Source: Cyanobacteriota bacterium SRBZ.bins.94.201705
GTDB lineage: Bacteria; Cyanobacteriota; Cyanobacteriia; Cyanobacteriales; Cyanobacteriaceae
Assembly: GCA_030549855.1 (NCBI GenBank)
Contig: JAUQQP010000004.1
Coordinates: 1-64,000, forward strand
Reading direction: 5' to 3'
DNA length: 64,000 bases
Below, piece after piece: positions 2,209-63,373 of this stretch (its first letter is position 1; each line of letters begins with the position of its first letter). Under the pieces are notes generated by a model, which searched no databases, had not been told where the DNA came from, and was given only the letters and a program-made list of their open reading frames with translations. Both the position numbers and the translations under genes were made by a program.

Positions 2209-2855
2209 GAGGGGGAGTCATTTTTTACATTCACTCTCAGGGGGGGTAGAGGAGGATTAACTATCCTGAGACAATGCTCAATTTTCTTGATAATAATAGG
2301 CTCATTTTCTGTATCCTTTAGCAGCAGCAAGTACTCTCTTATTTCCTCCATTTGTTTCTCATTTAATTCCTTCTTTTCCAGCATTATTATAATCTGATTC
2401 ACAGCCCAAAGCCTTCGCAGATTCGATTCCCTCGTTAAGTCGTATAAAATCTCCTCTAACCCCAATTCCTTTCCTTTCCCCAGCCACTTATTAAAGAAAA
2501 CAAAGAAGCCTCCTCCTGCTAAAAATAACTGCAAAATTAACCCCAATGCTAGCCACTTATTATTAGTTTCTGACCAAATATTCAAGGAAAAATACGTTAT
2601 TAACGACAACAGGCCTGCTACAATGACAGAGGCTACTAATTCCCCATTTTCTGACTGGAAAAACTCTTTTGTCTTATTTATCTTTCCCAAGAGGGTTGGC
2701 CATTTTATTCTAGCAGATAGCAAGAGGGTTGCTATAAAAACCAAGGATGAACAAACCAAGTCTTTCTCTCCTGCCGTTACGGCTAATCCCAGGAGGAAAT
2801 AGTAAAGTTTTTTGTCTAGGTATGGCGGATATTTTCTCCTTCTGTTAACACTCAT
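2163..2855 (-). CDS. hypothetical three-helix membrane protein
   Basis: A 230-residue protein that I do not recognise. About three hydrophobic helices lie in the N-terminal half (around residues 15-45, 70-95 and 100-120). A charged helical C-terminal part follows (LTRESNLRRLWAVNQIIIML and similar). The frame is open upstream to 3023, but I chose the ATG at 2855 (MSVNRRRKYPPYL), which follows an AGAGAG purine run. The upstream extension is derived from a decayed duplicate of this same gene start, so it is unlikely to be translated. The 3' end overlaps glgX tail to tail by 46 bases. Function unknown. Confidence 0.6.
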   Translation of the reverse strand: MSVNRRRKYPPYLDKKLYYFLLGLAVTAGEKDLVCSSLVFIATLLLSARIKWPTLLGKINKTKEFFQSENGELVASVIVAGLLSLITYFSLNIWSETNNKWLALGLILQLFLAGGGFFVFFNKWLGKGKELGLEEILYDLTRESNLRRLWAVNQIIIMLEKKELNEKQMEEIREYLLLLKDTENEPIIIKKIEHCLRIVNPPLPPLRVNVKNDSPSYLAIRTTQVRSCTK

Positions 2856-2964
2856 CTCTCTAACAAAAAATCTATAATTTCTTCCAATGAAAAGGCACAG
2901 GCTTCCCTGTAACCTCTGCCAACAACAGGGGTGGTAGGCATAAAAAATGGAAAGATGATAAGGG

Positions 2965-3220
2965 ACAATTTGCCATTTTATTCTAGCAGACAAAACGAAC
3001 ACTGCTAGGAAAACAAAGGACAAACGAATCCAATTTAAGTCTTACACAGCCGCTGAGGGGAAGATGATATAGTTTTCTATCTTGGTTTGGTAGAGGAGAC
3101 ATTTTTTCTTTTACCACTTTTTCCACTCATCTTCCCAACAAGAATATACCCTAGAGTCCCTACAACCCTCAACCCCAAAAAGGCACAGGCATGATTATAA
3201 CCTTTGCCAACAACCCACGG
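2965..3220 (-). pseudogene. decayed duplicate of the 5' end of the 2163-2855 gene
   Basis: This stretch repeats, at an offset of 273-288 bp, the leader, ATG and first membrane segment of the downstream gene. The 17-mer ccattttattctagcag occurs at 2700 and again at 2973. The leader motif aggcacagg occurs at 2893 and 3181. The ATGs correspond (2855 and 3130). In the upstream copy the frame from 3130 hits a stop after about 17 codons (KPR then TAG). The homologous residues FVFLAVFVLSARIKW continue in another frame, parallel to FIATLLLSARIKW in the intact gene. It is a tandem partial duplication that has since frameshifted. Confidence 0.65.
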
Positions 3221-11315: not shown

Positions 11316-11386
11316 GCCTGTCCTTTGTTTATATTTTTTATCTTTACATTTCTTAATTTCCTGTCCCAAATTCCAAAATATTATGC

Positions 11387-11456
11387 TAGGATAGGGGTAG
11401 AAGGAAATAGAAGGGGCGGTGGGCGCAGGGACCACCAAGACACTTGGGCAGCGCGT
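11387..11456 (+). ncRNA. element copy A1: promoter plus 5-bp/9-nt hairpin plus T-run
   Basis: First copy of a dispersed family. It has an extended -10 TGCTAGGAT (11385-11392) with only a weak -35 (CTGTCC). The stem is GGTGG (11418-11422) with CCACC (11432-11436) and a 9-nt loop gcgcaggga. The tail aagacacttgggcagcgcg and a T6 run follow, then the shared downstream motif tatcaacaagc. A compact transcribed RNA ending at the T-run is inferred; the exact ends are unknown. Confidence 0.5.
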
Positions 11457-11462
11457 TTTTTA

Positions 11463-12326
11463 TATGATAATTAATATCAACAAGCATGGAGAGGCTAGTG
11501 AAAAAGAGAAGAGAGTATTGCGAAGAGGGAGAAGAGGAGAGTGGAGGGCCTGTGGTTAGTGTTGTTGTCTAAAGGCCAGAGTCTGTAGAATGGCCCCAGA
11601 AGATTACCAAACCCCGAACACGTTGGAGGGGGTGCAGGGGGAGGGTTAGGAAGGAGGGGGATGGCACCGAATAAGAGCCAGAGATGTAATGCAAGATGCC
11701 GTCAGACAGCTAGGACAGTGTACTAGGGTGGGGGGATAAAAACGGAGAGAGGGGGATTGGAACCCTATCTAGTTGACTATCTGACAGGAAATCAAGAAGA
11801 AATAGGAATAATACCACTGATAGATCTGAGTCTTAAAAAGAACTCTTAAGCACAGGAGTAAGAAAATAAAGTCCTGTAGGTAATTTCTTGTAGCCACTGT
11901 ATTTCCGTAGGTCTATTAATCAAGTGGTGTAAAATACCATTTTTTCCTGTTGGCGTTTTCTAAATGTATAGAGAAGAGGTGATTCTTATTCTCTAATTTT
12001 TTGACGCTACAATAAAATAAAGACACCATAGGCCATTTATTCTACCCTGTCGCTACAACACATAATGCCCCCTTACCTCCCGCCGTATAGGCGGGTTATA
12101 TTTTTTCTCCTTGGTCTATTTTTTCACGTGACAATGTACTGCACATTTTTTCTTCTTCCCTACAGTACCATCCAAGACACCACAGGGAGGCACAAGCCCC
12201 CTATATTTATATCTCTTAAAGTATTAGATTTTTTCCTATCCTGTATCAGTTTTCTAAATATATACTCTACTCCCTACCCCTACTTCTCTAGAATGCCTAT
12301 CCAATAAAAAATTTTTGTATCTGATC
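11463..12326. other. non-coding stretch between element A1 and the 12.3-kb orphan promoter
   Basis: About 860 bp with stops in all frames apart from short open frames. The left part is purine-rich and the right part pyrimidine-rich. I found no recognisable protein fragment, insertion-sequence end or RNA gene. The open frame at 12065-12307 (80 codons) is a run of Phe/Leu/Tyr with no ribosome site and I do not call it. The only clear structure is the hairpin at 12079-12106. Confidence 0.4.
12079..12106 (+). terminator. GC-rich hairpin with T-run
   Basis: CCCGCC (12079-12084), loop gtata, GGCGGG (12090-12095), then ttata and TTTTTT. This is a perfect 6-bp GC stem, and the T-run is 5 nt further on, so it is a plausible intrinsic terminator for transcription arriving from bioF or element A1. 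Confidence 0.5.
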
Positions 12327-23786: not shown

Positions 23787-23976
23787 TCTTATTTTCCCCC
23801 TGTGGGCACCAGTTTTGATTTTATTTTACCCTACAGAGACCTTACAACCCTATCTATATGCAATTTATTTTTATCAAATCAACCGGAAAATAATCTTAAA
23901 ACCCTTATCTACACCGCTTATTACCCTGTTCCCTCTTCTTCCTCTCTCCCCATTATTGTCAATACTATTTATCATT

Positions 23977-24040
23977 TAAAAAATGCCCAGCACCACCCCC
24001 GGCAGTCACCCACCCTGCCATCCTCCCTCTCTGTCCTAGC
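23977..24040 (-). ncRNA. element copy B2: hairpin with 9-nt loop and T-run
   Basis: Read on the minus strand. Extended -10 TGCTAGGAC (24040-24033) lacks a convincing -35. The stem GGCAG (24019-24015)/CTGCC (24005-24001) closes the 9-nt loop ggtgggtga. A G-rich tail ending gggca precedes a T6 run (23983-23978). It is the same architecture as the A copies, with a different loop. It points toward the 23786 gene start and could be its leader. Confidence 0.45.
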
Positions 24041-25674: not shown

Positions 25675-26511
25675 TTACAATAATTCGTCCATTAAGTTCA
25701 TGATTCTTATAGTATTACCACAGACTTCTTCCCCCGGGGGCATTCTATTTATTTCCGCCTCCAGCAACCCCTTCATGGCAATTAGTTTGAGGCTGTTTTC
25801 CGCAAGAGTTTCACTGATAGCCTCTGCTGCGGGGGTATAACCTATGGCACCCAAATCCATTAAAGCGGATCTTCTCAATTGTAACTCCTCTCCCTTTAAT
25901 GCCTGCACCAAAATCTCTCCATACTGGCTATCACCGGTTAGTTGGTACATTGCCCTTGCTGCCGCATAGGCCACCTTTGGTATAGGATGTTCCAGAAATG
26001 CTTCAATCAGCGGTATAGCCTCCTTATCTCCCAGAGTACCTAATGCTTCAATTATAGCTTCATAGGGTTCATGGGGGTGAGGTTTGCCGGGAATTGTCTC
26101 CTTGGCATATTCTGTCAGTTTTCCATCCACCACAGCATGACGCAACATCTCTCGCAAAGGCGCAATTGCCCTTTTATCCTTCAACATTTCCAAAGCTTGC
26201 GCCGCCGACTCCCTCACATAGTAGTCATCACATGACAAACAGTTTATCAGTGGCTCTACTGCTTCCACATATCCCAATTTCCCTAATGCTTTTGCCGCAT
26301 TTCGTCTTAGGGGGAATCCCCCGTCGGGCGCCCTATCTTCCTCGTCTTCCAACGCCCTTATTAACGCCTCTACTGCCTCCTTCCTTTTTACCCTAAATTT
26401 TCCTAACCACCATGCTGCATAGTATCTTAGCCCCAAATCCTCTTTTTGTTCCAACCCTGCTATGGCACTCTCCGGTGTCAGATTCCTATTTTCTTCCCTT
26501 TCCTCTCTCAT
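25675..26511 (-). CDS. cpcE: phycocyanobilin lyase subunit CpcE (HEAT-repeat)
   Basis: With CpcF, CpcE attaches phycocyanobilin to Cys84 of alpha-phycocyanin. The start NLTPESAIAGLEQKEDLGLR and YYAAWWLGKFR are typical. HEAT-like repeats follow (ALIRALEDEEDRAP, PLRRNAAKALGKLG, YYVRESAAQALEMLKDKRAI, KVAYAAARAMYQLTG). 278 residues fits. No cpcF or phycocyanin structural gene is in the window. Element A2 diverges from its 5' end, with its -35 just 81 bp upstream of the cpcE start. Confidence 0.88.
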   Translation of the reverse strand: MREEREENRNLTPESAIAGLEQKEDLGLRYYAAWWLGKFRVKRKEAVEALIRALEDEEDRAPDGGFPLRRNAAKALGKLGYVEAVEPLINCLSCDDYYVRESAAQALEMLKDKRAIAPLREMLRHAVVDGKLTEYAKETIPGKPHPHEPYEAIIEALGTLGDKEAIPLIEAFLEHPIPKVAYAAARAMYQLTGDSQYGEILVQALKGEELQLRRSALMDLGAIGYTPAAEAISETLAENSLKLIAMKGLLEAEINRMPPGEEVCGNTIRIMNLMDELL

Positions 26512-26591
26512 TCTCTTTCTTCTTTTTTTCTCTTCCTAGTCTTATCATTATAAGCCCCTCCCTCTCATTTTCTCGTTTTTTTTTCTGCCCC

Positions 26592-26677
26592 TTGACAAAT
26601 CCCCGTCGCTTCTGGTATAATGATATAATCGGCGGTGGGCGAAAGGACCACCAAAACTTCTGGGCAGCGCACTTTTT
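26592..26677 (+). ncRNA. element copy A2: strong promoter and hairpin RNA
   Basis: TTGACA (26592-26597), 18 bp, TATAAT (26616-26621) in an extended TGG-TATAAT context. The stem GGTGG (26634-26638)/CCACC (26648-26652) closes the 9-nt loop gcgaaagga. The tail aaaacttctgggcagcgcac and a T5 run (26673-26677) follow, then tatcaa-type sequence. It diverges from cpcE and faces element A3. This is the best promoter of the family. Confidence 0.55.
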
Positions 26678-26831
26678 ATATAATAAAAATTATCAATAAT
26701 ATGACGGCTATAGTGCCATATATTTTAGATTATAAGGCATTTCCCCGTGACAGGCTTATAACTAACGCAATGCCCGAATAACGAGCTTAACTTGGGGTCA
26801 TAAGTAGATATTAATGGCATATATTATCAAT

Positions 26832-26920
26832 TAAAACTTTCGCTGCCCGAGTGTCTTGGCAGTCCTTAAGCCTGCCGTAGAGTATACCTCCATTGTAGCA
26901 GAAAAAGGGGCCCTTGTCAA
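26832..26920 (-). ncRNA. element copy A3: strong promoter and hairpin RNA, convergent with A2
   Basis: Minus strand. TTGACA (26920-26915), 17 bp, TACAAT (26897-26892) in TGC-TACAAT. The stem GGCAG (26876-26872)/CTGCC (26862-26858) closes loop gcttaagga. The tail aagacactcgggcagcg and TTTTAATTGATAAT follow. The stem sequence differs from A2 at two paired positions that keep pairing. It lies 41 bp after the phoH stop and reads toward cpcE. Confidence 0.55.
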
Positions 26921-26960
26921 GGGGTTATGGAGGGGATGGGAGGGGGGTGTACTGAAAAAA

Positions 26961-27914
26961 CTAGGTAAGGTTATCGTAGGCGGAAACGATTTTTTGAACA
27001 AGGGGGTGTCGGATGACGTCGGCGTGGGTGAGATAACAGAAGGCAATACCGTCAATGTGTTTTAAAACCTTGGTGGCAACAAGTAAGCCAGACTCTTGGT
27101 GGGGGGGTAAGTCGGTTTGAGTAATGTCGCCAGTGACAACCATTTTGGCGCCAAAACCAAGACGGGTTAAGACCATTTTGAGTTGGGAAGGGGTAGTGTT
27201 TTGGGCCTCGTCTACAATGATAAAAGCGCGACTGAGAGTACGGCCACGCATGTAGGCAATGGGGGCAATTTCGATTTTACCCCTTTCTATCAATTCGGGA
27301 ATTTTAGCAGGCTCGATAAATTCATAAAGGGCGTCGTAAAGAGGGCGTAAGAAGGGATTGACCTTCTGTTGCAAGTCACCAGGCAAAAAGCCCAATTTTT
27401 CCCCTGCCTCTACGGCAGGACGTGTTAGGATTAAACGGTCATATTCTCCCTTAAGAAGGGCTTGGCAAGCAATGACAGCCGCTAAAAAAGTTTTACCAGT
27501 ACCGGCAGGACCGATGCCAAAGGTAATATCATGGCTACGAATAGCATCCACGTATTGTTTCTGACGAAAGGTTTTGACACGAATAGCCTCCCCGTGACGG
27601 GTATAAGCCAGTATTTGTGTCTGTAGGTTTTGGTATTCTTCTATGCGACCAGTATCAAGGGCCTGAAAAGCAGTTAAAATGTCTGGCTTGGTAACGGTAT
27701 GGGCATTTCCCCAATAGGGCTTAAGAAAGTTAATGACATCAATACTCCGCTGCACCGGCTTGGCCTTGCCATATATTAACAGTTCTTGTCCTCGCAGTAC
27801 AATAGTTGCGCCAGTATGTTTAGAAATGAGTCTTAAATTCTCCTCCTGGGCGCCAGCAAGGGCAAGGGCACTGTCAATGCTGGGAAGGGCAATGGTTTGG
27901 GCATTTTCTGTCAT
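26961..27914 (-). CDS. PhoH-family ATPase
   Basis: A 317-residue PhoH-like (YbeZ-type) P-loop protein, likely acting in RNA metabolism with YbeY. The N-terminal KH-like part (GATIVLRGQELLIYG) is followed by Walker A GPAGTGKTFLAAV. LTRPAVEAGEKLGFLPGDLQ, Walker B FIIVDEAQNTTPSQLKM and TGDITQTDLP complete the motor core. It is first in a possible chain reading toward A3 and cpcE. surE lies 32 bp upstream on the same strand. Confidence 0.93.
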   Translation of the reverse strand: MTENAQTIALPSIDSALALAGAQEENLRLISKHTGATIVLRGQELLIYGKAKPVQRSIDVINFLKPYWGNAHTVTKPDILTAFQALDTGRIEEYQNLQTQILAYTRHGEAIRVKTFRQKQYVDAIRSHDITFGIGPAGTGKTFLAAVIACQALLKGEYDRLILTRPAVEAGEKLGFLPGDLQQKVNPFLRPLYDALYEFIEPAKIPELIERGKIEIAPIAYMRGRTLSRAFIIVDEAQNTTPSQLKMVLTRLGFGAKMVVTGDITQTDLPPHQESGLLVATKVLKHIDGIAFCYLTHADVIRHPLVQKIVSAYDNLT

Positions 27915-41661: not shown

Positions 41662-41776
41662 TTGACACTCTTCTTCCCCTGGTGCTACAATAGGGGCATG
41701 GGGGCGCGGGGCGGTAGGGTCGCTCCCTAGCGGCAGGCTGGAGGACTGCCAAGAAACTGGGGCACCCAACTTTTTA
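41662..41776 (+). ncRNA. element copy A4: strong promoter, extra hairpin, conserved hairpin and T-run
   Basis: TTGACA (41662-41667), 18 bp, TACAAT (41686-41691) in TGC-TACAAT. An added stem TAGGG/CCCTA with loop tcgct precedes the family stem GGCAG (41732-41736)/CTGCC (41746-41750), whose 9-nt loop is gctggagga. The tail aagaaactggggcacccaac, a T5 run and gattatcaacaagca follow, as in A1. It starts 26 bp after the MlaE stop. Confidence 0.55.
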
Positions 41777-41944
41777 AATTAAAAAGATTATCAACAAGCA
41801 GGGAAATTATAAAGGGGGGCAGAGGGTTGAATTTGCTTGATTTGTGACTAGGGAATGGCTATAAAATCTCCCTATCGCCAAATGTTTTTTATTTGCGCGG
41901 TTTCTCTTTGATTACAATTTGGCTAGCGCGAATAATTACTAATA

Positions 41945-42008
41945 AAAAGAAAGGCAGGGGCACCCCTGGCAGTCACCTTTCCTGCCGTCCCACAACCCCA
42001 TCGTAGCA
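41945..42008 (-). ncRNA. element copy B1: hairpin RNA convergent with A4
   Basis: Minus strand. Extended -10 TGC-TACGAT (42008-42000) with no good -35. The stem GGCAG (41986-41982)/CTGCC (41972-41968) closes the 9-nt loop gaaaggtga. The tail aggggtgcccctgcctttc forms its own GGGG/CCCC pairing and is followed by TTTTTATT. It faces A4, with about 320 bp between the two -10 boxes, between two convergent protein genes. Confidence 0.5.
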
Positions 42009-60284: not shown

Positions 60285-60321
60285 ATGGCAATCAGCATCT
60301 GGCAGGGAAATCTATCCCCAC

Positions 60322-60445
60322 CGGATAGGGATAAACCCTTACCCCTGCCAGACGAGGATAAATCCTTACCCCTGGGTAGAGATAAACCCTTACCCCTGGG
60401 TAGAGATAAACCCTTACCCCTGGGTAGAGATAAACCCTTACCCCT
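60322..60445. repeat. 24-bp hairpin-forming tandem repeat upstream of hypC
   Basis: Three identical 24-bp units (60374-60397, 60398-60421, 60422-60445) are preceded by two diverged ones (from about 60322 and 60350). Each unit begins gggtagagataaa and ends cccttacccct, so GGGTA can pair with TACCC inside every unit. The array lies between a YggT gene and hypC, 36 bp before the hypC ATG. A single related copy occurs at about 63348-63373. Confidence 0.85.
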
Positions 60446-63329: not shown

Positions 63330-63347
63330 AACTTTTCCTAAATCCCC

Positions 63348-63373
63348 CTGGGTAGGGATAAGCCCTTACCCCT
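63348..63373. repeat. isolated copy of the 24-bp repeat
   Basis: ctgggtagggataagcccttaccccta matches the hypC-upstream unit with a few changes that improve its own hairpin (GGGTA-GGG-ataag-CCC-t-TACCC). It lies between the convergently spaced rluD-type and glnB regions. Confidence 0.65.

Follow-up and report, generated by a model that had tools for sequence, protein, structure and literature searches.

The cpcE–phoH intergenic region

The window, by which we mean the whole 64-kb stretch of DNA that was analysed, contains a cpcE-like gene and phoH with two oppositely oriented elements, A2 and A3, between them. The features of this locus are as follows.

25675–26511, minus strand: cpcE-like gene (PBS lyase HEAT-like repeats); transcription from the A2 promoter would run away from the start of this gene, and that from the A3 promoter toward the gene
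26592–26621, plus strand: A2 promoter TTGACA-18-TATAAT, with TG before the -10 box (promoter scan)
26626–26714, plus strand: A2 core
26634–26652, plus strand: A2 hairpin H1, GGTGG / 9-nt loop GCGAAAGGA / CCACC, with a covarying stem and loop-closing pair
26653–26677, plus strand: A2 conserved 3′ segment, with a T-run at 26673–26677
26678–26698, plus strand: A2 AT-rich dyad tail, Fur-family-box-like by consensus only; conservation stops past it
26884–26796, minus strand: A3 core
26812–26857, minus strand: A3 conserved segment, short T-run (GTTTT, T at 26836–26833) and dyad tail; no counterpart seen in the congener
26858–26876, minus strand: A3 hairpin H1, GGCAG / GCTTAAGGA / CTGCC
26892–26920, minus strand: A3 promoter TTGACA-17-TACAAT (promoter scan)
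26961–27914, minus strand: phoH; A3 begins just past its stop codon

The original prediction described A2 and A3 as facing copies with near-consensus promoters, and the promoter scan bears this out. On the plus strand, the A2 promoter matches the consensus at 12 of 12 positions (TTGACA at 26592–26597, 18 nt, TATAAT at 26616–26621), and on the minus strand the A3 promoter does so at 11 of 12 (TTGACA at 26920–26915, 17 nt, TACAAT at 26897–26892). Positions 26500–27000 hold three promoter-like sites, the third being a 9/12 match, compared with 1.0 ± 1.0 in shuffled sequences. The gap between the two -10 boxes, put at about 280 bp, measures 270 bp. The gene positions agree with the claim that A3 points to cpcE and A2 away from it.

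A2 and A3 are related to each other, forming a direct repeat family (D2) and an inverted pair (I1) within the window, and a blastn search of their region against its own genome returned 23 matches, the query counted in; profile searches of further loci added more. Each arm measures about 115 bp and recurs elsewhere as an element standing singly, in tandem or in facing pairs, so the idea that inverted copies bound the whole intergenic region as one unit does not hold.

The cpcE–phoH adjacency (25675–27914) also occurs in the one congener examined, a sister species (G001; the present genome, of 2.9 Mb, is G000). Among 60 named cyanobacterial loci, with flanks of up to 4 kb, none has phoH near cpcE, so these loci hold no equivalent site for the proposed test of whether the pair is conserved in distant cyanobacteria. 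The cpcE protein has its nearest named relatives in Geminocystis, with 71% identity. A comparison with a close relative had been proposed as a check for an insert. The congener has A2 in the same place, with the GGTGG/CCACC stem retained, and lacks A3; the surrounding spacer is too diverged to align. Because the congener has A2 and not A3, the pair at cpcE–phoH is, as judged from the two sequences, one that was completed or lost within the genus. The presence of A3 in one species only indicates that the family is still turning over.

The H1 hairpin and its family

The element consensus is GGYRG-G-[Y(N4)R]-KA-CYRCC, a hairpin (H1) of five stem pairs and an isolated loop-closing pair, separated from the promoter by a variable leader that has an extra GC-rich insertion in some copies. 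We built a covariance model of 89 positions, R1, from 41 cores; the alignment used 41 of 43 copies and left out L051:3383, which has an expanded loop, and L057, a copy at a contig end. R1 matches the window six times (E from 1.8e-17 to 1.1e-8), with all six matches being among the 41 building sequences. Besides A2 and A3, they are:

11410–11498, plus strand: copy A1, A type, with an HLR1-like site upstream at 11343–11356
23941–24027, minus strand: B-type copy (covariance model)
41724–41812, plus strand: A-type copy facing the copy at 41908–41994 (covariance model)
41908–41994, minus strand: B-type copy facing the copy at 41724–41812; upstream TTTATTTTTCTTAACATT conserved in G001

The facing pair at 41724–41812 and 41908–41994 is present at the same site in G001, and A1 is related to its G001 ortholog by a compensatory change from GGTGG/CCACC to GGTAG/CTACC. 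The window also contains a tandem repeat with a 24-bp unit (GATAAACCCTTACCCCTGGGTAGA-like) at 60306–60445 and 63333–63373, the related copy lying about 2.9 kb away. At 2696–3214, two 60-nt direct repeats that are 75% identical and separated by 273 bp are joined by a further pair at 2890/3178; these are likely a local duplication.

A genome search with R1 gave at least 73 matches in G000, and 57 of 73 scored candidates matched in G001. Over the stretches covered there are 141 matches at E ≤ 0.1, 82 in G000 and 59 in G001. They reduce to 136 copies with at least four of the five stem pairs (80 in G000 and 56 in G001; 78 of A type and 58 of B type), then to 131 whose loops are also no longer than 11 nt (at least 77 and at least 54), and finally to 119 with 9-nt loops (71 A and 48 B). 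Because nine arbitrary 20-kb stretches (L216–L224) gave no copy, the full number in the genome probably exceeds 80 by little. Three loci of G000 (L154 on C4, L208 on C39 and L159 on C10) carry clusters of three to four same-strand copies hundreds of bases apart, which suggests local duplication.

Among the candidates scored in 58 other relatives, at most 73 per genome, R1 gave no match at E ≤ 0.01. In a phylum-wide draw that overlaps this set, it matched 0 of 290 other cyanobacterial genomes at E ≤ 0.001, with 15 candidates scored in each. Matches of about 30 bp in two other genera (G008 and G021) were not confirmed by the model. The family was not found in plasmids, phages or viral contigs. 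The exact pattern had 0 matches in named genomes, a set from which its own or very near genomes may be missing. A separate, strict promoter-plus-element pattern gave 0 matches. In Rfam, the window at gathering scores yielded only a tRNA, positions 26400–27100 nothing at E ≤ 10, and 17 other loci a single match, NPPA-AS1_3, with an E of 1.2 and 19 bits against a gathering score of 55.

Covariation within H1 was quantified on two sets of alignments. Across the 41 copies, 246 of 246 cells are standard pairs and 40 cells carry a double change, compared with 10.9 in shuffles; counted instead by pairs having a double change, the value is 3 versus 2.9, which is no excess. In the alignments of the 59 G001 and 82 G000 matches, which are fitted to R1 and hence lean toward it, 98.5% and 98.7% of cells are paired. 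Their double-change cells number 55 and 81, versus 13.2 and 25.7 in shuffles and 0–9 in slid controls, although related sequences can exceed shuffles even without structure.

The H1 loop has 9 nt in 119 of the 136 copies. Its position 1 is G in 116 of these 119, its position 9 is A in every one, and positions 2 and 7 are paired; the loop ends in GA in most copies and in TA or AA in others. The 2–7 pair, which was not used for anchoring the copies, covaries between C-G, U-A and A-U and is paired in 97% of A copies (74% shuffled) and 96% of B copies (51% shuffled). ViennaRNA assigns H1 a mean probability of 0.39 in A and 0.37 in B and does not favour it; the program presumably under-scores the non-canonical internal loop. 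At L051:3363–3471 and L196:3020–3127, the apical tetraloop is swapped for a much longer loop and the internal-loop residues are kept; three further long-loop copies are weak matches.

The mismatches tolerated in the stem bear on which strand, and which nucleic acid, is functional. In the stem cells of the 119 copies, G·U occurs 19 times and A·C three times. Because G·U is accepted and A·C hardly ever, this asymmetry points to the promoter-read strand as the functional one, and to RNA rather than DNA.

Downstream of H1 lies a subtype-specific segment, AAGACAYYTGGGCWGCGC in A and AGGGGNGNNCCTGGGC in B. A T-run (at least 5 T of 8) is found in 52 of 71 A copies and 33 of 48 B copies, versus 0.7% and 2.1% elsewhere. 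A hairpin adjoining the T-run is plausible in B; in A, none abuts it. Because the second-hairpin and terminator pairings have no covariation, the 3′ end of the putative RNA is uncertain, above all for the A type. A terminator/antiterminator switch between H1 and a second hairpin was rejected on the same grounds.

The element ends in an AT-rich dyad around TGANAATAATTATCAATAA, and conservation stops past it. A role of this tail as an RNA stem was rejected, its symmetry being 0.541 versus 0.538 with columns shuffled. The box of the Fur family is a TGATAATNATTATCA-type dyad. A Fur-like box with at least 11 of 14 matches occurs in 33% of 131 copies, compared with 0.14% of window positions and 0.6% of shuffled tails. 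According to the account in PMC4005646, Anabaena FurA presumably binds AAATAAATTCTCAATAAAT; the dyad resembles the FurA consensus, yet it is located downstream of the promoter. Because the genome has no exact TGANAATNATTNTCA, we take the likeness to a Fur box as resemblance only.

Promoter motifs, conserved sites and facing pairs

The pattern TTGACN-N16-18-TANNNT precedes 54 of 78 A copies and 17 of 58 B copies, where shuffles predict about 0.5 per class, and it never occurs on the reverse strand. In 16 of 58 B copies, TTTACATTNNTTAA lies about 62 bp before the hairpin. With a looser pattern, consisting of a first repeat and a degenerate second one, an HLR1-like site (TTTACATTTCTTAA) is present in 18 of 58 B and two of 78 A copies, at a near-fixed distance from the hairpin in B copies and also at 11343–11356 upstream of A1. 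The HLR1 consensus given in PMC9241938 has two (G/T)TTACA(T/A)(T/A) repeats 2 nt apart; this full two-repeat motif is found in none of the 58 B copies and in one of the 78 A copies. The HLR1-like copies could possibly form a light/redox regulon. At the motif level, 99 of 136 copies have one promoter motif or the other; by the patterns used, 37 have neither (16 of 80 in G000 and 21 of 56 in G001).

We then compared the copies between the two species. There are 37 syntenic ortholog pairs with the same site and orientation, and the A/B type agrees in 37 of 37; 17 pairs rest on a single flanking gene, and the clustered ones (L154/L192 and L159/L188) are uncertain. Across these pairs, 148 stem cells are the same, 14 are doubly compensated, 16 have a one-sided change with pairing kept and seven are broken, of which five belong to three poor pairs. 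For the loop pair, 20 cases are unchanged, six doubly compensated, one altered on one side and one broken, giving 20 compensatory double changes in all for stem and loop pair together.

Two of the 37 pairs have a poor hairpin and were omitted from the identity and promoter-class tests. Identity between orthologs is 0.86–0.92 in the stem strands, 0.45 upstream of the -35 box and 0.33–0.36 beyond the dyad, and 0.58 in the promoter spacer (eight pairs), which is not saturated. Orthologs are about 0.1 more alike than unrelated same-type copies in the stem, loop and dyad; the conserved segment has 0.63 versus 0.62. For the -35 box the values are 0.97 versus 0.96, in few, selected pairs: the -35 and -10 comparisons are biased upward, as they cover only 11 pairs in which both members match. 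The fairer test is whether the promoter class is kept within ortholog pairs, as it is in 15 of 24 for the sigma70 motif and six of seven for the HLR1-like site, with chance probabilities of 0.7% and 0.14%; in the other nine of 24, the G001 member lacks the sigma70 motif. Because hairpin pairing and promoter class persist where the sequence past the element has diverged, neutral mobile-element remnants are unlikely, and the family appears to be kept by natural selection.

Neighbouring copies have a strong directional bias. Within 600 bp, neighbours are convergent in 13 cases in G000 and four in G001, divergent in none and tandem in nine; weak matches are involved in three of the tandem cases and in two of the gaps between neighbours. 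Of the four G001 facing pairs, three are orthologous to G000 pairs, which leaves about 14 independent loci; because these give 14 convergent to 0 divergent, the bias is unlikely to arise by chance (about 1e-4, two-sided). The 17 facing pairs have core gaps between -20 and 288 bp, with five of them at 80–83 bp, and a constant spacing was rejected.

Such a bias would fit a reading of A2 and A3 as the terminal inverted repeats of one insert of about 350 bp with inward promoters, a MITE or other non-autonomous transposon, which was one of the two options in the original prediction. The inverted arms, intergenic location, many copies and inconsistent gene orientation also agree with it, as does the occurrence of A3 in one species only. 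At one facing pair, L155:2617–3228 (G000 C14), a 12-bp direct match, CCCAGTAGGGGT, is found in both flanks, where the shuffle maximum is 8; this is the only hint of a target-site duplication. However, the flank repeats lie within the maximum of 30 shuffles in the other 16 of 17 facing pairs, arms also occur singly, 37 copies are at conserved sites, and G001 has A2 without A3. The pairing of the hairpin and the promoter class also outlast the divergence of sequence past the element. A search limited to the Y1 transposase family found no Y1_Tnp (PF01797) gene in G000, with five of 14 control genomes positive. The middles of facing pairs gave no blastn match at E 0.01, in a comparison of low power; their dissimilarity is no argument against a MITE, because orthologous middles do not match either. 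Taken together, we consider a MITE improbable.

REP and BIME sequences are high-copy hairpins, often in opposed pairs and common at the 3′ ends of genes. A DNA element of this kind would use the hairpin as single-stranded DNA, for a tyrosine transposase or a nucleoid protein, and the facing pairs would be BIME-like. The bulged hairpin, the high copy number and the opposed pairs are shared features, and an AT-rich dyad without a row-wise pairing signal fits as well. Elements are also commoner between convergent genes (29 of 50 gaps) than between divergent (19 of 65) or tandem genes (43 of 93), counts for which genes were called by an ORF heuristic, loci were chosen for holding elements, and element-bearing gaps are longer. 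In contrast, the present family has two promoter-motif classes, correctly spaced in one orientation only and often kept between species; it accepts G·U and hardly A·C; and its genome has no gene for a Y1 transposase. A REP/BIME-like DNA element is therefore quite improbable in our estimation.

The position of A3 raises the question of whether the element acts on its neighbour. A cis-acting leader or attenuator, with A3 as the regulated leader of cpcE, would accord with A3 pointing to cpcE with a weak T-run, with the prediction that in some copies the 3′ stem strand can pair differently, and with the 24 of 67 classified G000 copies that read toward a gene in the sense direction. The remaining 43 read toward an oppositely oriented gene. 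By the same ORF heuristic, and relative to the upstream and then the downstream gene, the 67 copies comprise 25 same-opposite, 18 opposite-opposite, 15 same-same and nine opposite-same, and a general cis role is disfavoured because the orientation to genes is mixed. The congener's lack of A3 and the missing covariation for a terminator/antiterminator switch also count against a leader, which is very improbable. With A3 directed at cpcE and its T-run weak, an effect on this gene is possible; because A3 is absent from the congener and copies have no fixed gene orientation, it would not be a general role of the family.

Convergent promoters are also used by par-type loci (PMC7472228, for the general arrangement), and facing type I toxin–antitoxin-like loci would encode a short peptide between them. 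An inspection by eye of ORFs of at least 15 codons found none common to the 17 facing pairs, and most copies lie outside facing pairs; this explanation is extremely improbable. A protein-coding reading of the element itself was rejected: part of the A copies can be read in frame as a MAxGExTxKT-like peptide, but the B type is shorter by 2 nt, some loops have 10–11 nt and the facing pairs have, by eye, no ORF in common.

A candidate RNA gene family compared with known systems

The original prediction had offered two converging small RNAs as the alternative to MITE arms. At the sequence level, the RNA option is the one supported, by the covariation, the G·U/A·C asymmetry, and the hairpin and promoter class kept at syntenic sites. 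We consider it likely that A2 and A3 belong to a multigene family, specific to this genus, whose genes would encode short structured RNAs. The analysis establishes the family, its conservation and covariation, the strand, the promoter motifs and the facing bias. Its products are candidate trans-acting RNAs; transcription, an RNA end at the U-run and an action in trans are inferred. A trans-acting, dose-dependent RNA is suggested because one constrained hairpin, uniform apart from a less restricted apical loop, recurs at about 80 loci.

A typical member would be its own transcription unit, driven by a housekeeping-type promoter (most A and some B copies) or by an HLR1/RpaB-like site that replaces the -35 box (part of the B copies). 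The predicted RNA has about 50–60 nt, with a variable 5′ leader, H1 with its near-invariant G / K-A internal loop, the conserved segment of 16–18 nt and the U-run. Transcription would most likely end at the U-run, and the AT-rich DNA dyad then follows. Most likely, the RNAs from dozens of loci would together present the same recognition hairpin to an RNA-binding protein and serve, according to their dose, as its decoy or guide. Within the RNA-gene reading, such a protein partner is put forward tentatively, as an idea with somewhat less than even standing. In facing pairs, the RNAs would be partly complementary if read through, and this complementarity may adjust their output.

The full form of this proposal is speculative, and we regard it as unlikely in all its parts together. 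About 80 one-hairpin RNA genes, spread over the chromosome and read from constitutive and light/redox (RpaB-like) promoters, would jointly determine how much of an RNA-binding protein is free, and the members of a facing pair would damp each other by antisense transcription. In place of one strong titrating RNA, the regulator would be distributed over many genes, work by gene dosage and have its origin inside a single cyanobacterial genus. In sRNAs of the CsrB/RsmZ or 6S type, hairpins are offered to one protein. The likeness lies in the proposed way of working only; in contrast, there is here one conserved hairpin per gene across dozens of genes, and the loop end varies between GA, TA and AA.

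We know of no conserved promoter belonging to the BOX, RUP and SPRITE repeats of pneumococcus. These small interspersed repeats, as presented in PMC3049150, are almost confined to a species group and are in some cases transcribed, and the authors read them as parasitic; the narrow host range is a property they have in common with the present family. Correia elements and other MITEs, in the description of PMC10969869, are intergenic and high in copy number, with sigma70 promoters in their arms. The present family is also intergenic, high in copy number and equipped with sigma70-type promoters, but it has no insert unit, its arms stand alone, it lacks general duplications, and compensatory changes keep its hairpin.

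A survey of 50 genomes assigns structured repeats with multiple copies and inconsistent orientation to the mobile or repeat candidates (PMC11109978). The present family resembles the MRSC-type repeats set out there in its dozens of copies, covarying hairpin and inconsistent gene orientation. By the survey's account, MRSC-65-2 spans phyla, consists of one long stem and in some cases lies close to transposases, whereas the present family is genus-restricted and promoter-bearing. The rule as worded in that survey would file the family as mobile; the shared sites, compensatory changes and promoters speak against such an assignment.

No report of the family was recognised in the open-access literature searched, and it appears to be a previously uncatalogued, putative multicopy sRNA gene family, set apart by its exceptional copy number and its facing pairs. 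If it is transcribed, an RNA gene family has expanded to the order of a tRNA gene set within one genus. Two questions would then arise: by what route the genes increase in number when no transposase is apparent, and what is governed by the dose of an RNA encoded at scattered loci.

The closest comparison is with Yfr2, the best-known multicopy cyanobacterial sRNA family, which is likewise structured and present in several copies per genome. The genomes covered by the account in PMC6778093 have two, four and nine copies, and the family occurs phylum-wide at unconserved loci. Phylum-wide occurrence of this kind was not found with R1 (0 of 58 and 0 of 290 other genomes). Unlike Yfr2, with its few to nine copies, the present family has about 80 in a 2.9-Mb genome, was found in one genus, has no Rfam match and occupies 37 sites common to two species. 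These copies are structurally constrained and mostly promoter-bearing, yet have no match in the other genomes examined. The family also suggests that hairpins repeated many times between genes are not necessarily parasitic.
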